Below are positions 6,933 through 59,930 of a stretch of 64,000 nucleotides of DNA, in pieces. Under the pieces are notes generated by a model that saw only the letters and a program-made list of their open reading frames with translations, searched no databases and was not told where the DNA came from. Position 1 is the stretch's first letter. The number at the start of each line of letters is the position of its first letter. Source of the DNA: Gammaproteobacteria bacterium (GTDB taxonomy: Bacteria > Pseudomonadota > Gammaproteobacteria > Pseudomonadales > Azotimanducaceae); the NCBI GenBank assembly GCA_026707045.1, contig JAPOXO010000062.1, positions 1 through 64,000 on the forward strand. The letters are read 5' to 3'. The position numbers were made by a program, and so were the translations under genes.

Positions 6933-7829
6933 CTATTGGTCTCGCATTTTTGTTGCTTTTAGATACGGCTGCATATTCATTCCTGGATATCTGGCTGATA
7001 CTCCTTCAATTGTTTCATCAGTCCAGTATTCGTGACCTGGTGCTGGAAATCCGAACAATTCTCTTTGATCGGGAGTTGCAGCCTCTATCCACTTGCGAAA
7101 CTCGGGTCGAATCGCCTCTGCGGACCAGCTGTCAATTCCAAGCCATCTCCAGGCTGCGGGAGAATAGGTGATGAATTGCCCTACACGACCCCCAAGAGCT
7201 GAAAACGAAGTGCCTCGGTGAAACGTACGCATGCTATAGATCAACAATCCACCTGCTGGTACTACGACCTTGACTTCGTTGTCATAAAGTTCTGGTCTCT
7301 GTTCACGCGTGTAGTGTGCTGGAACGCGGAAACTCTCCGGATAGTGTTTCCAAGAGCAGACGGCAGTAGGCGCATCATTCACCGTTACATCGGTGTAGTA
7401 CAGCAGGTAGGCCGTTTGCCAATACGCCGGCAGATCAGGAGGATAAGCAAGTGTATGGTTGCCGTAATCACAGTGCATCGACTGTTCTACGTCCGAATTG
7501 TCCCCTTTGCGTTTTGCATGAAGGTTTCCTTGCTCACAATACAACGCACTACCCCCGGCAAACTTGCTGGCCAGACTCCGTAGTTCCGGATGTAAGGTGA
7601 TGTAGTTGAGCCACCTGCCTGGAAACGGGAACCTCCAAATGGGACGCCGCGTTCTACGCGGCGAAGTTGGTGGTTCACCGTTTGGATCTTCACAATATTC
7701 AATCCATCCGGGCAGAACATCCTTAAGTTCGTTTCTAGCCCCCTCAAGCTCCTCAGACGACAAAAACTCTTCAACGATGGCAAATCCATGCTCTGCGTAG
7801 TGTCGCTCGTGCTTGGGTTCTATTCCCAT
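6933..7829 (-). CDS. Phytanoyl-CoA dioxygenase (PhyH) family protein
   Basis: This is a predicted Fe(II)/2-oxoglutarate-dependent oxygenase of the PhyH family. The double-stranded beta-helix core shows the iron-binding HxD in MHCDYGNH, the distal His in TFHRGTSF and a 2-oxoglutarate-binding Arg in GGRVGQF. I start at the ATG encoding MGIEPKHERH. The frame is open for 16 more codons to 7877, but that longer form would overlap the divergent gene and has no ribosome binding site. PhyH enzymes hydroxylate fatty acyl-CoAs, amino acids and secondary metabolites, so the substrate cannot be read from sequence. It sits 35 bases upstream of lpxA in the same direction and may be co-transcribed with it. 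Confidence 0.85.
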   Translation of the reverse strand: MGIEPKHERHYAEHGFAIVEEFLSSEELEGARNELKDVLPGWIEYCEDPNGEPPTSPRRTRRPIWRFPFPGRWLNYITLHPELRSLASKFAGGSALYCEQGNLHAKRKGDNSDVEQSMHCDYGNHTLAYPPDLPAYWQTAYLLYYTDVTVNDAPTAVCSWKHYPESFRVPAHYTREQRPELYDNEVKVVVPAGGLLIYSMRTFHRGTSFSALGGRVGQFITYSPAAWRWLGIDSWSAEAIRPEFRKWIEAATPDQRELFGFPAPGHEYWTDETIEGVSARYPGMNMQPYLKATKMRDQ

Positions 7830-7891
7830 ATGGTCGTGTTGCTCTCTATCATGTACATAGCCCAACCAAAGTGCCATTCAATCTGGTGTCT

Positions 7892-42577: not shown

Positions 42578-44578
42578 CTAGGCGTGAGCTTCGACCTTTG
42601 ACGAATACGCAGTATGGGATTTTCTTGGTTCGAAATACACTTTAAATCCATCATCCGGATGAGGGGTTGGAATCGGACGGATTTTTAAGGTGTACTTAGC
42701 TGAACTCAACCTGATGTCGAAGAAGTGGATAAGAGTCGCAGCGTTCATCATTACAAGGAGTTGCGCGAAGTCAGCGCCAAGGCATCGATGGGGACCCACC
42801 CCAAAAGGTACAAACGCACCAGGTTGGCGATGTTCCTCACGATCGGGTAAATAGCGGTCAATATCAAACTGGGTTGGATTTGGAAAATACTCTTCTAAGT
42901 AGTTAGGAACAGAAGTCGCTACCATCACCTGTTCTCCGGCAGGAATCCTATATCCTTCAAAATCAAAGGAATTTGAAACGGTTCGCACAATTGATGGAAC
43001 TACCGGCCACATACGCAGCGATTCCATCATTGCTCGACTGATGACATCAAACTTGGCCAGTGCGGATTTTCCGTTCAAATGGCCTTCAAAGACACTTTCC
43101 GCTTCTTCTCGAGATCTTTCCATCAATTCAGGTTGCTTAAGCAAGGCGTAAAGAAGGAATGAGGTTGCAACAGCGGCAGTTTCCAAACCTGCAAAAAACG
43201 GCCCCAGCGTCGTCAGCCTGAAGTCAGTTTCAGGAACGAGATTTGGATTGTCGCGATGCATCTTTAGACACATGTCAATCAAGTCCGGATTGCGATTTTG
43301 TCGCAAATGGGGATCATGAGCTTCGATCACCTTTTGCGAGAATTCCTTGATTCTCCTATGAGCACGATTGACGCGTGGTCGTGCAAGTTCCATGCTGGGC
43401 CTAGCCTTTGTGACTCGAAGAAGCAGCATGGTTTCTAGAAACAGAATCAAGTCATCTATGTAGTCCGCGGGCGAAACTCCGGTCGTCAGAACGCCAATTT
43501 GCTCAGAGACTAGTCGTTGCATGGTGTAGAAAGCTCGCCTAGGCTTGTCGTCGCTGGAGTTGCCAATTTCCCGTTTTACGATGGAAACAACTTTGTCGAG
43601 CTGATCGGACACCATACGTTGAGAATAGCCATCTCGCATCCCCTTTCGTAACTTGGTGTGATCGTCGCCGTCAACACTCACCATCGATCTTGAAGCCTTA
43701 AATTCCTGGTCGAAGTCTTGCCAAGTCTCCTTGGATCGAAGGTAGTCACGTCCATGACGGTGAACGAAGTTGTTGGCGTTTGCACCGGCCAATACTGTGT
43801 ATTCTCGATTCAGCACTTTCACTCTATAAACTGGACCAAGCTTCAGGTACTGTTCAGTAAGAAACTGTCCGACATTTCCGGCCATTTCGATCGCGTTTCC
43901 TAGGACCGGCAATCCACGTACAGTTGGAGTGGGAGTACGCATTCGAATCCCGCGTCGAATCGTCGCTACGAGAAACTGCAGATTGGGGTCTGAGTGAATG
44001 GTGTGCTCTACAGAACCTTCAATTTCCTGATACTCATCAGTCGACATAAGCTCGTCAAATCCACCGCACGCCTCTGCGATGGCGATAAGCGTCGAATCTC
44101 GTTGGTTCGCTTCACTTCCACTCAAGAGTGTTCCCATCAGGCGAGCCCTTACCTCGCTCACTTCTGTGTCAATTGAACTCGGGTATTTTCGAGTATCCCG
44201 TACCCACCGCGAACGCTTGAAGACTCCGTCTTCATCGACACGCAAGACTCCGCTAGAAACAAGGCGTCGTAGCCCAAGGTCACGAAGAACGTCTGCGCGA
44301 AGTGCCGCGTGCTTCAACCAATGCATTAGCTCCCTGGACCGCTTACTTTGAGCAATATCAGAAAGCGTGGGATCCAGCAAGTACTCGCCAGTGGGAGAAT
44401 CGTCCAGAACCGTCAATTTGCTTTCGGAAATGCTGACTTTTTCCAAAGCGAGAAGGTCTGCAATGACTCCGGCGGCCGTTGACCAATCTAATCGGTCTGG
44501 TTCCATGTGAACGAAAGATCCTTCGTTCTCGTCGATGAACAGAACAATTAGCTCTTCAGTGATAGTAAGGTTTGCCAT
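42578..44578 (-). CDS. GPP34 (GOLPH3-like) domain fused to cytochrome P450
   Basis: This single frame of about 666 residues contains two recognisable domains. Residues 1 to about 215 match the GPP34/GOLPH3 family: LTITEELIVLFIDEN, then DDSPTGEYLLDPTL, LRRLVSSGVLR, YPSSIDTEVSEVRARL and LIAIAEACGG, in the same order as actinobacterial GPP34 proteins. Residues from about 220 are a cytochrome P450: I-helix AGLETAA, the ExxR motif ESLR, DRYLPDR as the PERF equivalent, and the heme loop FGVGPHRCLG with the thiolate Cys at about 599. The frame continues upstream to a TTG at 44608, but the ATG at 44576-44578 directly precedes the conserved domain. GPP34 proteins bind anionic lipids, so membrane recruitment of the P450 is a reasonable inference. 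The substrate is unknown. Confidence 0.9.
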   Translation of the reverse strand: MANLTITEELIVLFIDENEGSFVHMEPDRLDWSTAAGVIADLLALEKVSISESKLTVLDDSPTGEYLLDPTLSDIAQSKRSRELMHWLKHAALRADVLRDLGLRRLVSSGVLRVDEDGVFKRSRWVRDTRKYPSSIDTEVSEVRARLMGTLLSGSEANQRDSTLIAIAEACGGFDELMSTDEYQEIEGSVEHTIHSDPNLQFLVATIRRGIRMRTPTPTVRGLPVLGNAIEMAGNVGQFLTEQYLKLGPVYRVKVLNREYTVLAGANANNFVHRHGRDYLRSKETWQDFDQEFKASRSMVSVDGDDHTKLRKGMRDGYSQRMVSDQLDKVVSIVKREIGNSSDDKPRRAFYTMQRLVSEQIGVLTTGVSPADYIDDLILFLETMLLLRVTKARPSMELARPRVNRAHRRIKEFSQKVIEAHDPHLRQNRNPDLIDMCLKMHRDNPNLVPETDFRLTTLGPFFAGLETAAVATSFLLYALLKQPELMERSREEAESVFEGHLNGKSALAKFDVISRAMMESLRMWPVVPSIVRTVSNSFDFEGYRIPAGEQVMVATSVPNYLEEYFPNPTQFDIDRYLPDREEHRQPGAFVPFGVGPHRCLGADFAQLLVMMNAATLIHFFDIRLSSAKYTLKIRPIPTPHPDDGFKVYFEPRKSHTAYSSKVEAHA

Positions 44579-44752: not shown

Positions 44753-45766
44753 TCATGATTCAAGCATCAATCTAGCCATTTTCGCCTTTGCGACAATGCT
44801 AAGTTGGTATTTCTCTAAATCAAACTCTTGCTCGCCCATCGCTCCGACCAGATAGCGCTTGTAAACACCTTGGGCAATGGCTGCTAAGCGCCAATGCGAG
44901 AATGCACGGTAGTAGTTGATTTGTGAAAGGCTTCTTCCTGTTAGCTTCTCATACCGACTGCAGATTTCAGCGCGCGTCGGAAATCCTCCGACACTAGTCG
45001 GTGATCCGTTACTCGGTGTGTCCGTCGATTCTCCCCAGTTGTTCAAGAGATAACCGACATCAGCCAAAGGATCTCCCAATGTACAGAGTTCCCAATCCAA
45101 GAGAGCGGCCATGGAGCCAGTACGAATGATCATATTCCCAGGGCGATAGTCGCCATGAACGATGGAAGATCCAATTTGCTCAGGATGTTGCTCGTGCAGA
45201 AGACGCAATGTTTCGTCCATGTCGGGAATTTCGTGTGTTTTTGTTGCTTCCCACTGTTGTGTCCATCGTTTAAGCTGTCTCTCGATATAGCCTTGCTTAC
45301 GACCGAGGTTTCCCAGTCCAACATCTTCTGGATTGGTTAAGTGGAGGTGAGCAAGCACTTCGATTACATCGTTTCCAAACGACCTTCTGTCCGGATAAGG
45401 CAGCTCACCCATGACTGAAGGATTATGAGGGACATTTCCTTCGATAAAGTCCATGACGTAGAACGAAGATCCGTTAACGTTTGGGTCTTCGCAGAGTCCG
45501 TACGTCTTCGGTACAGGAACGCGAGTATTTTCTAAAGCGGAAATAATTCGATACTCGCGGCCCATGTCGTGTGCACTCTGAAGAACGTGTCCCAGTGGCG
45601 GACGACGCAGAACATATGCTTTGTCTTGAGAATCAACGAAACGATACGTCAGGTTCGAGTGTCCACCGGCGATCAATGAGAATACGAGCGGTGGTTTGAC
45701 AGCCGGTATGTGCTCGACAATCCATCTGCATACGTTTTGATAGTCAATTCCCTCAACGATGGACAT
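44753..45766 (-). CDS. Aminoglycoside phosphotransferase-fold kinase (ACAD10/11 N-terminal type)
   Basis: This 337-residue protein-kinase-like phosphotransferase closely resembles the kinase part of ACAD10/ACAD11 and their bacterial relatives. It shows an N-terminal nucleotide lobe with SLIAGGHSNLTYRF and VLRRPP, the catalytic loop VHGDYRPGNMI with Asp, and the metal site LLDWELCTLGDPLADVG. It is unlikely to be an antibiotic-resistance enzyme. ACAD10/11-type kinases phosphorylate hydroxylated acyl groups in eukaryotes. Its position just upstream of the P450 fusion in the same direction fits a hydroxylate-then-phosphorylate pathway, which is inference. Confidence 0.85.
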   Translation of the reverse strand: MSIVEGIDYQNVCRWIVEHIPAVKPPLVFSLIAGGHSNLTYRFVDSQDKAYVLRRPPLGHVLQSAHDMGREYRIISALENTRVPVPKTYGLCEDPNVNGSSFYVMDFIEGNVPHNPSVMGELPYPDRRSFGNDVIEVLAHLHLTNPEDVGLGNLGRKQGYIERQLKRWTQQWEATKTHEIPDMDETLRLLHEQHPEQIGSSIVHGDYRPGNMIIRTGSMAALLDWELCTLGDPLADVGYLLNNWGESTDTPSNGSPTSVGGFPTRAEICSRYEKLTGRSLSQINYYRAFSHWRLAAIAQGVYKRYLVGAMGEQEFDLEKYQLSIVAKAKMARLMLES

Positions 45767-46013: not shown

Positions 46014-47318
46014 ATGTCGAATTGGCCTTTCCTGCAAAACGGTAAACCGACGCATATATCACGTGCGGAAGGAGTCTACATTTACACCAAGGAAGGTCGG
46101 AAAATTCTCGACGGAGCCGCAGGAGCGATCGTATGCAACATTGGTCACGGCCGAGCGGAGGTTGCGGATGTTGTACGCGATGCAACGATAAAGACAGACT
46201 ACGTATTGCCTCCATGGCATTGCGACGAACGTGAAGAGTTAGTTGAGCTATTGACCGAAAAATGGCTGCGACCGTGCTTCACGCGAGTCCATTTAACCTG
46301 CGGAGGGTCTGAAGCCATCGAGGCTGCGATGCGCATTGCGGTCATGTATTACTCGTCTCAAGGCAGGCCTAACAAAGTCAAGATTATCGGGCGCGACATT
46401 TCCTATCACGGCACAACGTTTGCAACTATTTCAGTGGGTGGACACGAGTCGCGCAAGATCGGCGTCAAGCACATGCTTCAACGCCATCCAATCGCCCCAA
46501 CACCCTACACTCTACGTTGCGAGAGCAATGATCCAACTCAGTTTTATCTTAACGAGCTGGAAAAGACTATTCTCGAGGAAGGTCCCGATACTGTTGCTGC
46601 GTTGCTTGCTGAACCGATTGCAGGCGCCAGTGGAGGTGCCATGGTGCCGCCAGATGGATATTGGGAAGGCGCAAGGCAGATTTGCGATAAGTACGACGTT
46701 CTTCTCATCATCGACGAAATCATGACGGGGTTTGGTCGCACGGGATTGCACTGGGGTTATCAGCATTGGCCGATAGAACCCGACATCTTTGTCAGCGGCA
46801 AAGGACTCACAGCCGGCTATTCTCCACTCAACGCTTTGTTCTCTACGGACAAAGTAGCAGCGCCCATCGAACAGTCTCCTGGATTCAGTGTGATGTTTCA
46901 CACGTATGGATCATTTGCTCCCGCGTGCGCCGCTGCCTGCAAGGTGTTGGAAATAATGGACGAAGAAGGATTGATTGAACGTACTAGGGACTTAGGGGAT
47001 GTACTCGCGTCTAAACTGCAAGCCGCATTCTCGAACCATCCCCATGTAGCCGAATGTCGCGGAAAAGGATTACTTCAAGCCATTGAGATTGTCAAGAATC
47101 GATCCACGCTCGAGCGCTACCCAATCGAAGAAAACGTAACCGCCAAAGTCATCAAGACTGCGTTCGATAACGGCGTACATTTCTACGGTGCCGGCACTTC
47201 GATTGTGAGAGATGTGGTCTTAATGGGCCCGCCCATGACAGTTGAGGAGTCGCACTTAGACACAATGGTCGAGTCACTGTCCGCCGCCGTTGACACCGTG
47301 ACGCAAGGTGCGAACTAG
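46014..47318 (+). CDS. Class III PLP-dependent aminotransferase
   Basis: This 434-residue fold-type I aminotransferase belongs to the omega-amino acid/aspartate aminotransferase-like group. It shows GSEAIEAAMRIA (cofactor phosphate region), SYHGTTFAT, the PLP-ring Asp in LLIIDEIMTGFGRTG and the Schiff-base Lys in FVSGKGLTAGYSPL. Length is typical. Substrates of this group include beta-alanine, GABA, taurine and polyamines; none can be chosen here. It is divergently transcribed from the kinase gene across 247 bases. No ribosome binding site is obvious. Confidence 0.88.
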   Translation: MSNWPFLQNGKPTHISRAEGVYIYTKEGRKILDGAAGAIVCNIGHGRAEVADVVRDATIKTDYVLPPWHCDEREELVELLTEKWLRPCFTRVHLTCGGSEAIEAAMRIAVMYYSSQGRPNKVKIIGRDISYHGTTFATISVGGHESRKIGVKHMLQRHPIAPTPYTLRCESNDPTQFYLNELEKTILEEGPDTVAALLAEPIAGASGGAMVPPDGYWEGARQICDKYDVLLIIDEIMTGFGRTGLHWGYQHWPIEPDIFVSGKGLTAGYSPLNALFSTDKVAAPIEQSPGFSVMFHTYGSFAPACAAACKVLEIMDEEGLIERTRDLGDVLASKLQAAFSNHPHVAECRGKGLLQAIEIVKNRSTLERYPIEENVTAKVIKTAFDNGVHFYGAGTSIVRDVVLMGPPMTVEESHLDTMVESLSAAVDTVTQGAN

Positions 47319-58814: not shown

Positions 58815-59930
58815 CTAAATTCCAATCGCATATCGTTGATAGTTAACTAGGTCCGCGGATGTCCACATCTTACTCCGTAAGTCTCTAGCTAGTTCCTTGG
58901 AGGGCTTGTATCGATAACTTCGTTCCTGGGGATATTTCTGCCTCCTCGCAGCTATGGCAACATCAATGAGTTCGCAACTTCTTGCAATAAACTCCTCATT
59001 GAACGGACGCTCGGCCCATCCTTGAACTCCTAGTACTGAAGATCTTCGGTGGAAACCAAACACAAAGGTATACCGAGGATCGGAAGAACTATTGGGAAAC
59101 GATCCATGTACAACTTGCCGATTGCAAATCGCAACATCTCCCGGCTTGCACAATAACGGAACAGCACCCCCTATCCTCTCGAACTTAGCATCCCGCATCA
59201 TTTGCTTTAGGTCGGCTTTCCCATGTTTGTGCGTACCGGGTACAACCCACAACGCGTTGGCTGGCGTGGTCTCTTGCAGATTAACCATGAAGTTGAACCC
59301 GTGCGTTCCGGGATCCAAGGCGGGATTGGTCCAATGAGTAGTGCCGTCCTGGTGCCATGAAACTGCTGCACCAAGTCGAGGTTGTTTAATCCACATGGTC
59401 TCCGTGAACGGAGTGAAGTCGGGTCCATTGATTGCTTCCGCCAAAGCAAGCAATTTGGGATGTCCATAGAGTCCGAGTGCCGAATCCATAAATTGCAGCA
59501 ATCCACCAATTTGAAGCAAAACCTCTTTAGGAGAGCCAACGGGTGCAGCGGATTCCGAAATCTTTACTTGGTAGCGACCGCCGCCAACGTCCGTTTGACC
59601 ATACGGGTCAGAGAGAGGACGGGCGAAACGGAACAGCTTTCTCTGACTTTCGTCAAATGTCAGAGGATCACCTGATGCATCGGTCACTGCATCCGAAGAT
59701 TCAGGCGCACGTCCCAGCAATTCTTGAGTTTCGATATTTAGGTCATTAAGCTCTGAAGTCGATATGACTTTCTCAAGAACAAAAAAACCGTATTCCCAAT
59801 ACGCATTAACTATTGCACTGTCAATCTCCCCACTTTCACCTACAACGAGCGGGCCACGGTTTGACAGTGAAAGAGCTTTTTCACGAGACTCTTCGAAAAA
59901 CTCTGAGAGTGTGGCGCTTTGTTCATTCAT
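58815..59930 (-). CDS. Phytanoyl-CoA dioxygenase (PhyH) family protein
   Basis: This 371-residue Fe(II)/2-oxoglutarate oxygenase shows the iron-binding HxD in SWHQDGTTHW, the distal His in NRQVVHGSFPN and a 2-oxoglutarate Arg in SSDPRYTFVF. It is longer than the PhyH protein encoded at 6933 and only distantly similar to it. It begins 12 bases after the dehydratase gene, so it is the last gene of a glnS-dehydratase-PhyH operon. The operon hints at hydroxylation of an amino-acid-like substrate, which is inference. Confidence 0.87.
   Translation of the reverse strand: MNEQSATLSEFFEESREKALSLSNRGPLVVGESGEIDSAIVNAYWEYGFFVLEKVISTSELNDLNIETQELLGRAPESSDAVTDASGDPLTFDESQRKLFRFARPLSDPYGQTDVGGGRYQVKISESAAPVGSPKEVLLQIGGLLQFMDSALGLYGHPKLLALAEAINGPDFTPFTETMWIKQPRLGAAVSWHQDGTTHWTNPALDPGTHGFNFMVNLQETTPANALWVVPGTHKHGKADLKQMMRDAKFERIGGAVPLLCKPGDVAICNRQVVHGSFPNSSSDPRYTFVFGFHRRSSVLGVQGWAERPFNEEFIARSCELIDVAIAARRQKYPQERSYRYKPSKELARDLRSKMWTSADLVNYQRYAIGI

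Follow-up and report, generated by a model that had tools for sequence, protein, structure and literature searches.

A real bacterial enzyme joins a membrane-binding domain of the Golgi type to a cytochrome P450. Its gene lies on the minus strand of the window, by which is meant the whole stretch of 64,000 nucleotides that was analysed, at 42578..44578 (ATG at 44578, stop at 42578), and encodes in an unbroken frame a protein of 666 aa, classed below as type A, whose relatives span both domains. The first-pass annotation had read there one uninterrupted frame with a GPP34 domain followed by a P450 carrying ExxR and FGVGPHRCLG, and its coordinates and motifs, given without a strand, were correct. 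Profile searches with the fusion protein confirmed the N-terminal half as GPP34 (PF05719, profile positions 1-172 of 201, 44030..44563, minus strand; Pfam E 1e-25, 91.3 bits against a curated cut-off of 29.1) and the other half as a P450 (Pfam PF00067, 42701..43918, minus strand; E 2e-55), the latter also by fold comparison. In the AlphaFold2 model (mean pLDDT 88.7, pTM 0.73), a helix of residues 198-212 (43943..43987, minus strand) leads from GPP34 into the P450. The P450 fold, the ExxR motif (ESLR, 43013..43024, minus strand, by alignment) and the Cys heme loop (FGVGPHRCLG, 42776..42805, minus strand, by sequence and alignment) place the protein in the cytochrome P450 superfamily, and the aligned I-helix AGLET (43178..43192, minus strand) holds the acid-threonine pair of a canonical P450 monooxygenase. 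As a whole, the earlier interpretation stood as regards a true GPP34-P450 fusion conserved in evolution and was not supported as regards phosphoinositide binding by a basic pocket; the present analysis adds a second paralogue in the genome, two I-helix types, a sterol gene context and an apparent distribution among sponge symbionts.

Relatives were taken as the best 80 loci of a scan of a species-level genome collection, 70 of which matched both GPP34 and P450 and 10 P450 alone (L076 being counted as P450-only and L085 as fused in all totals). By their record labels, the 70 fused loci came from nine phyla, namely Pseudomonadota (30), Chloroflexota (14), Acidobacteriota (10), Gemmatimonadota (7), Latescibacterota, Rhodothermota and Binatota (2 each), Deinococcota and Myxococcota (1 each), with one locus without phylum, and the P450-only loci from Acidobacteriota (7), Chloroflexota, Pseudomonadota and Entotheonella (1 each). 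The mapping of this architecture over taxonomy, proposed with the first reading, thus returned GPP34 and P450 on one chain in at least nine phyla. A sequencing or assembly join, which the same reading had foreseen as an objection, or a decayed gene has a negligible probability, since homologues spanning both domains occur in independent assemblies from these phyla and both halves are under purifying selection wherever dN/dS could be computed, while the window frame is unbroken and interruptions were seen in the relative L085 and in a further locus, L178. In the unsaturated pair L066/L067, dN/dS was 0.20-0.26 for both halves; between the window and L061 it was 0.05-0.11 for GPP34 and 0.03 for the P450, with dS near or past saturation, and in the two other pairs most estimates were lost to saturation.

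In a GPP34-half tree of 59 rows, the 44 fused domains stood on one side of a branch (97/98) from the domains without P450, and the main P450 subclades were recovered. For this tree type B was thinned to 12 rows, the free rows L006 and L011 were added, and the free row L024, the MFS fusion L164, the long rows L098, L105 and L121 and two mis-framed rows were dropped. An independent fusion in the window clade had been suggested by a quick GPP34 tree of 89 rows including two mis-framed ones, with three changes between fused and free and the window trio placed with free domains (98), and was gone in the careful tree. A single origin of the fusion, with both halves inherited together, appears the likelier reading of these sequences, without being proved. 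With phylum labels on the P450 tree, 23 changes were needed (minimum possible 9, shuffles averaging 43), a count that paralogues and mis-binned contigs may have raised and that fits a spread partly vertical and partly horizontal.

The PI4P-contact residues of human GOLPH3, which we take to be W81, R90, R171 and R174, correspond in the profile alignment to E, A, D and R of the window protein, so that only the R174 equivalent is kept among the four, the W81 place being less sure as it adjoins an alignment gap. A role as PI4P reader was consequently rejected on the pocket residues, and PI4P reading by the window GPP34 appears unlikely, contrary to the phosphoinositide binding and basic pocket proposed at first. 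The position of the GOLPH3 hairpin, to which the first reading had also pointed, is present at residues 118-133 (44180..44227, minus strand, by alignments) and is basic here (GVFKRSRWVRDTRKYP, 6 of 16 residues), with AlphaFold2 pLDDT values of 87 (residues 121-130) and 66 (residues 131-140). Such a basic position would fit general binding of anionic lipid, for which the domain is a candidate. Tethering of the P450 to the membrane by GPP34 is considered fairly likely, and recruitment to the membrane and to lipid substrates is plausible, fitting the association of relatives with sterol genes; since P450 occurs without GPP34 in 10 of the best 80 loci, tethering would be dispensable there.

GOLPH3 binds Golgi enzymes via a protein tail, and the GPP34 half could instead be a module for docking or regulation, with a sterol methyltransferase (SMT), a Rieske oxygenase, a redox partner or a protein tail among its possible partners. 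Such a module would agree with the loss of three of the four pocket residues and with the fusion of GPP34 to an MFS transporter already in the membrane (L163), where an anchor would be redundant. It agrees less with a hairpin position that by eye is hydrophobic or basic in free and fused forms, and with the gain that an enzyme acting on membrane substrates would draw from tethering. Docking is considered rather unlikely, and membrane tethering is the reading retained. An association of free GPP34 genes with sterol genes was also considered and not kept: among 22 free-standing loci, none longer than 3.6 kb, two of the same genus (L001 and L020) adjoin a fatty-acid-hydroxylase-family gene, and in the other 20 the reference panel matched GPP34 only, with no sterol genes seen. 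The fusion with an MFS transporter is a second kind of GPP34 fusion, found in one genome of the class search (G396; L163:8462-10327 by Pfam, L164:7607-9514 by the look of the sequence). Elsewhere (L039:925-2097, G006:C51) GPP34 is followed by about 190 residues without Pfam match, and further genomes of the family also contain frames about 400 aa long.

Two types of fusion were distinguished by the I-helix of the P450. In type A, Thr was present in 44/44 rows, after Asp, Glu or, in 6 rows, His; in type B, a one-residue deletion and Tyr for Thr were found in 39/39 rows, all of them thus lacking the acid-threonine pair of canonical monooxygenases, with ExxR and the heme Cys kept. The second fusion of the source genome (670 aa, on another contig) is a type B paralogue. 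A type B structure model (mean pLDDT 87.7, pTM 0.85) displayed an unbroken I-helix. In a quick tree made without the I-helix columns, the two types were split by one change (SH-aLRT 100), and in a tree rooted on the CYP51-type P450 of the genome, in which outgroup branches were long and forks near the root weak, type B fell inside type A, suggesting that the I-helix change is probably derived. P450s that have lost the acid-threonine pair include enzymes with peroxide-driven, isomerase or substrate-assisted chemistry. The type A enzyme of the window would be an ordinary O2-dependent monooxygenase. A GPP34-P450-like gene of a Binatota genome (L174:4348-6357, G665:C184), with Ser at the I-helix site and the divergent Cys loop FGCDAHRCPM, sits between cyclase and SMT genes and is possibly a third type.

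The neighbourhoods of 38 type B and 42 type A loci were compared by flank clustering with Pfam and NCBIfam labels, the counts being lower bounds on short contigs, with near-copies included, with Fisher p values uncorrected for relatedness and with longest-ORF gene calling that may miss genes. An RND permease (AcrB-type, PF00873) was found at 28/38 type B against 3/42 type A loci, an adaptor gene at 19/38 against 1/42, an outer-membrane channel (NodT-type) at 16/38 against 0/42, a Rieske KshA_C oxygenase at 17/38 against 0/42 and an SMT with PF08498 at 10/38 against 1/42. One locus (L043) has channel, adaptor, P450, SMT, permease and Rieske genes; a 9.7-kb Binatota contig has cyclase, GPP34-P450, SMT, Rieske and SMT in order; and the second fusion of the source genome is surrounded by Rieske, RND (24% to the reference), adaptor, flavin monooxygenase-like and SMT genes. 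Judged by its family, the pump next to type B would be an exporter.

When the 124 ORFs of at least 80 aa in the window were compared with 28 reference proteins, only the fusion and, weakly, an APH-family gene matched, and no sterol genes were found beside the fusion; the window gene is thus not physically linked to a sterol cluster, while its type B sisters often are. The APH gene (kinase-like, 337 aa, 44753..45766, minus strand; assigned by profile and flank clustering) lies upstream of the fusion, is kept beside it in the close relative SB0661_bin_9 (L055/L061) and shows weak similarity (26% over 137 aa, E 1e-4) to a gene of the EcKL type found at other type A loci. A class III aminotransferase gene (46014..47318, plus strand) is retained close to the fusion in both L055/L061 and L056/L062. 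APH/EcKL (ecdysteroid-kinase-like) genes occur near the P450 in further type A loci, for example L093, L094, L099, L064 and L071. Two other ORFs of the window, at 6933-7877 and 58815-59930, resemble by eye proteins of the phytanoyl-CoA dioxygenase type.

The source genome itself carries sterol genes. On one of its contigs (C118), squalene epoxidase and oxidosqualene cyclase are fused in one gene (TIGR03463, 712 bits against a cut-off of 851). The contig also has an ERG4/ERG24 sterol reductase, homologues of SdmA (410 bits) and SdmB (307 bits), both below the NCBI cut-off of 600, a separate CYP51-type P450 (L167) so labelled from gene order and its AGQHT motif, and a gene judged by eye to be HMG-CoA-reductase-like. 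The genome further gave three SMT matches and one gene of the squalene/phytoene synthase family. Since this contig has a basic sterol pathway, the GPP34-P450s appear to be extra to it. An SMT-like gene of the same genome (L168:4530-5549, G000:C35) lies in two adjoining frames. Across 100 genomes of the family, SMT was found in 14, a verified fusion being present in 13 of these 14 against 3 of the 86 without SMT, and in 9 of the 14 an SMT lay within 10 kb of the fusion. A further 26 genomes were chosen from the 80 loci, 13 via a type A and 13 via a type B locus, without completeness values and with the possibility that one genome holds both types; in these, 8 of 20 SMT copies (7 genomes) lay at most 10 kb from a GPP34 frame of at least 550 aa. 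SMT was present in 6/13 type A-chosen against 11/13 type B-chosen genomes and a strong cyclase in 3/13 against 9/13, with one further weak cyclase in the type B set; no cyclase match was obtained in 10/13 and 3/13 genomes respectively. Three genomes of the type A set (G651, G658 and G660) had no cyclase match, yet an SMT beside a type B copy. This cyclase gap, which could reflect host sterols, incomplete bins or another substrate, speaks more than any other observation against the general substrate being self-made sterols, leaving host sterols or another lipid.

Concerning the window P450, CYP51 chains led its sequence and structure matches, with identities of 20-28%. P450s filled the structure-match lists of the fusion, sterol P450s scoring slightly ahead of BM3 and the retinoid P450 CYP120A1 scoring the same as CYP46A1. 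That it is the CYP51 of the genome appears unlikely, as the genome has the separate CYP51-type gene. AGxHT, the CYP51 I-helix motif, is absent from its AGLET; the separate gene has AGQHT and is 28% identical to it over 190 residues. It is also conceivable, although doubtful, that the type A enzyme of the window oxidises another membrane lipid (apocarotenoid, retinoid-like or fatty-acyl) and that the sterol link belongs to type B only. CYP120A1, which hydroxylates retinoic acid, is one of the top matches in both sequence and structure, most type A-chosen genomes show the cyclase gap, and the neighbours at type A loci are sulfotransferase (10/42), APH/EcKL kinase-like (9/42) and MFS pump (9/42) genes, not sterol genes. 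Against this, a squalene-hopene cyclase lies within 1.3 kb of three of the 42 type A loci (two being near-copies), a squalene epoxidase/cyclase frame and a CYP51-like fragment were also read on the contig of one of these three, L093 (= L180), type B falls inside type A in the tree with long outgroup branches, and the source genome has sterol genes of its own. A type A-like copy (L175) was moreover seen between cyclase and RND genes. The GPP34-P450s as a family are thus read, with a modest leaning, as membrane-tethered tailoring enzymes of sterols or triterpenoids, the sterol link being quite probable for type B and evenly poised for the type A enzyme of the window.

The distribution of the relatives strongly suggests, by isolate names, that they come from sponge microbiomes, an indication from names and not a count, made without a seawater or soil control. 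Among the best 80 loci, 17 carry the prefix SB06xx, which we take to be an Ircinia ramosa set, another 17 carry jk18x, another 23 carry COS, RHO, IRC or APA, and the other 23 have no traced prefix. The parts consulted of two sources give jk18x as the prefix of Caribbean Ircinia sponge MAGs (Kelly 2022, PMC9531527) and a sponge species list (Robbins et al. 2021) that COS, RHO, IRC and APA fit, as a fit of prefixes and not by one-by-one matching. Three GPP34 genes are present in the source genome: one encodes a free-standing protein of 217 aa, and the other two are the window fusion and the second fusion of 670 aa. In the same family, 27 of 100 genomes had a GPP34 match and P450 fusions were verified in 16 genomes of six genera, a count that leaves out G094, where the frame with GPP34 is 346 aa long and sits at the end of a contig, and G017, where a frame of 674 aa matched GPP34 weakly (25 bits). 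In a search of the order (293 genomes, some of the same family), no long fusion frame was found outside the family, the matches over cut-off there coming from a single other family (four genomes, with frames of 164-301 aa), and a search of the class (274 genomes) gave one more GPP34-P450, read as type B (G558). Carriage on plasmids was rejected: 641 of 72,556 plasmid records matched the fusion query and in none did a single place cover 80% of it. The best plasmid match to the window P450 (34.8%; Planktothrix agardhii plasmid p2, L171, NZ_LR882940.1) lies near a squalene-oxidase-repeat gene, P450s and a squalene/phytoene synthase gene.

Taken together, these observations are consistent with a scheme in which GPP34 would keep a soluble P450 at the inner membrane, on its cytoplasmic side, probably through general contacts with anionic lipid rather than PI4P, and the tethered P450 would oxidise a sterol or other triterpenoid dissolved in that membrane. 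The window copy would act after the genome's own pathway of squalene epoxidase-cyclase, CYP51-type P450, sterol reductase and SdmA/B, and at type B loci the SMT would alkylate sterols, the Rieske enzyme oxidise them and the RND pump send the product outward. More speculatively, the fusion may be the signature of a horizontally spread sponge-symbiont system modifying and exporting sterols, in which type B, its oxygen-activating threonine lost and its heme ligand and fold kept, would not be a monooxygenase and would act on sterols by a different heme chemistry, be it isomerisation, dehydration or an oxidation that is peroxide-driven or substrate-assisted. Unusual sterols of sponges would then be products of bacteria. 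Sponge sterols serve as molecular fossils of early animals, and symbionts may have a part in making or altering these sterols; the family provides definite, testable enzymes tied to bacterial SMTs and a pump, across phyla apparently living together. It also suggests a new way of placing a soluble P450 on a membrane and includes a clade of P450s in which the usual oxygen-activating residue is gone while the rest of the enzyme is kept.

No report of a GPP34-P450 fusion was found in the open-access literature searched, within which the fusion is new and its parts are known. CYP120A1 and CYP46A1, whose substrates are retinoid and cholesterol, match the window P450 half highly in sequence or structure, and we know of no GPP34 on either. 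GOLPH3 and Vps74 belong to the same domain family as the window GPP34 (E about 1e-16, by profile); they are eukaryotic and free-standing, with a PI4P pocket. In the CYP51-ferredoxin fusion of Methylococcus capsulatus, the extra domain is a ferredoxin electron donor, whereas that of the window protein is GPP34. As far as the parts of these sources consulted go, the Ircinia symbiont sterol clusters (Kelly 2022, PMC9531527), the Melophlus msb cluster (Mohanty 2020, PMC7074536) and the bacterial SMTs (Brown 2023, PMC10070321) have like host bacteria and partner genes (cyclase, CYP51, reductase, Rieske and SMT); for the terms looked up, the main texts contain no GPP34, Rieske or efflux (Kelly 2022), no P450 or GPP34 (Mohanty 2020) and no P450, cytochrome or Rieske (Brown 2023). 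In the portion consulted of the report on BstABC/HpnN (eLife 2024, PMC10942540), RND-type transport lies beside bacterial sterol genes as it does in type B, BstA being an MMPL/HpnN-like RND protein whereas the type B loci have an AcrB-type permease (PF00873), an adaptor and a NodT-type channel.
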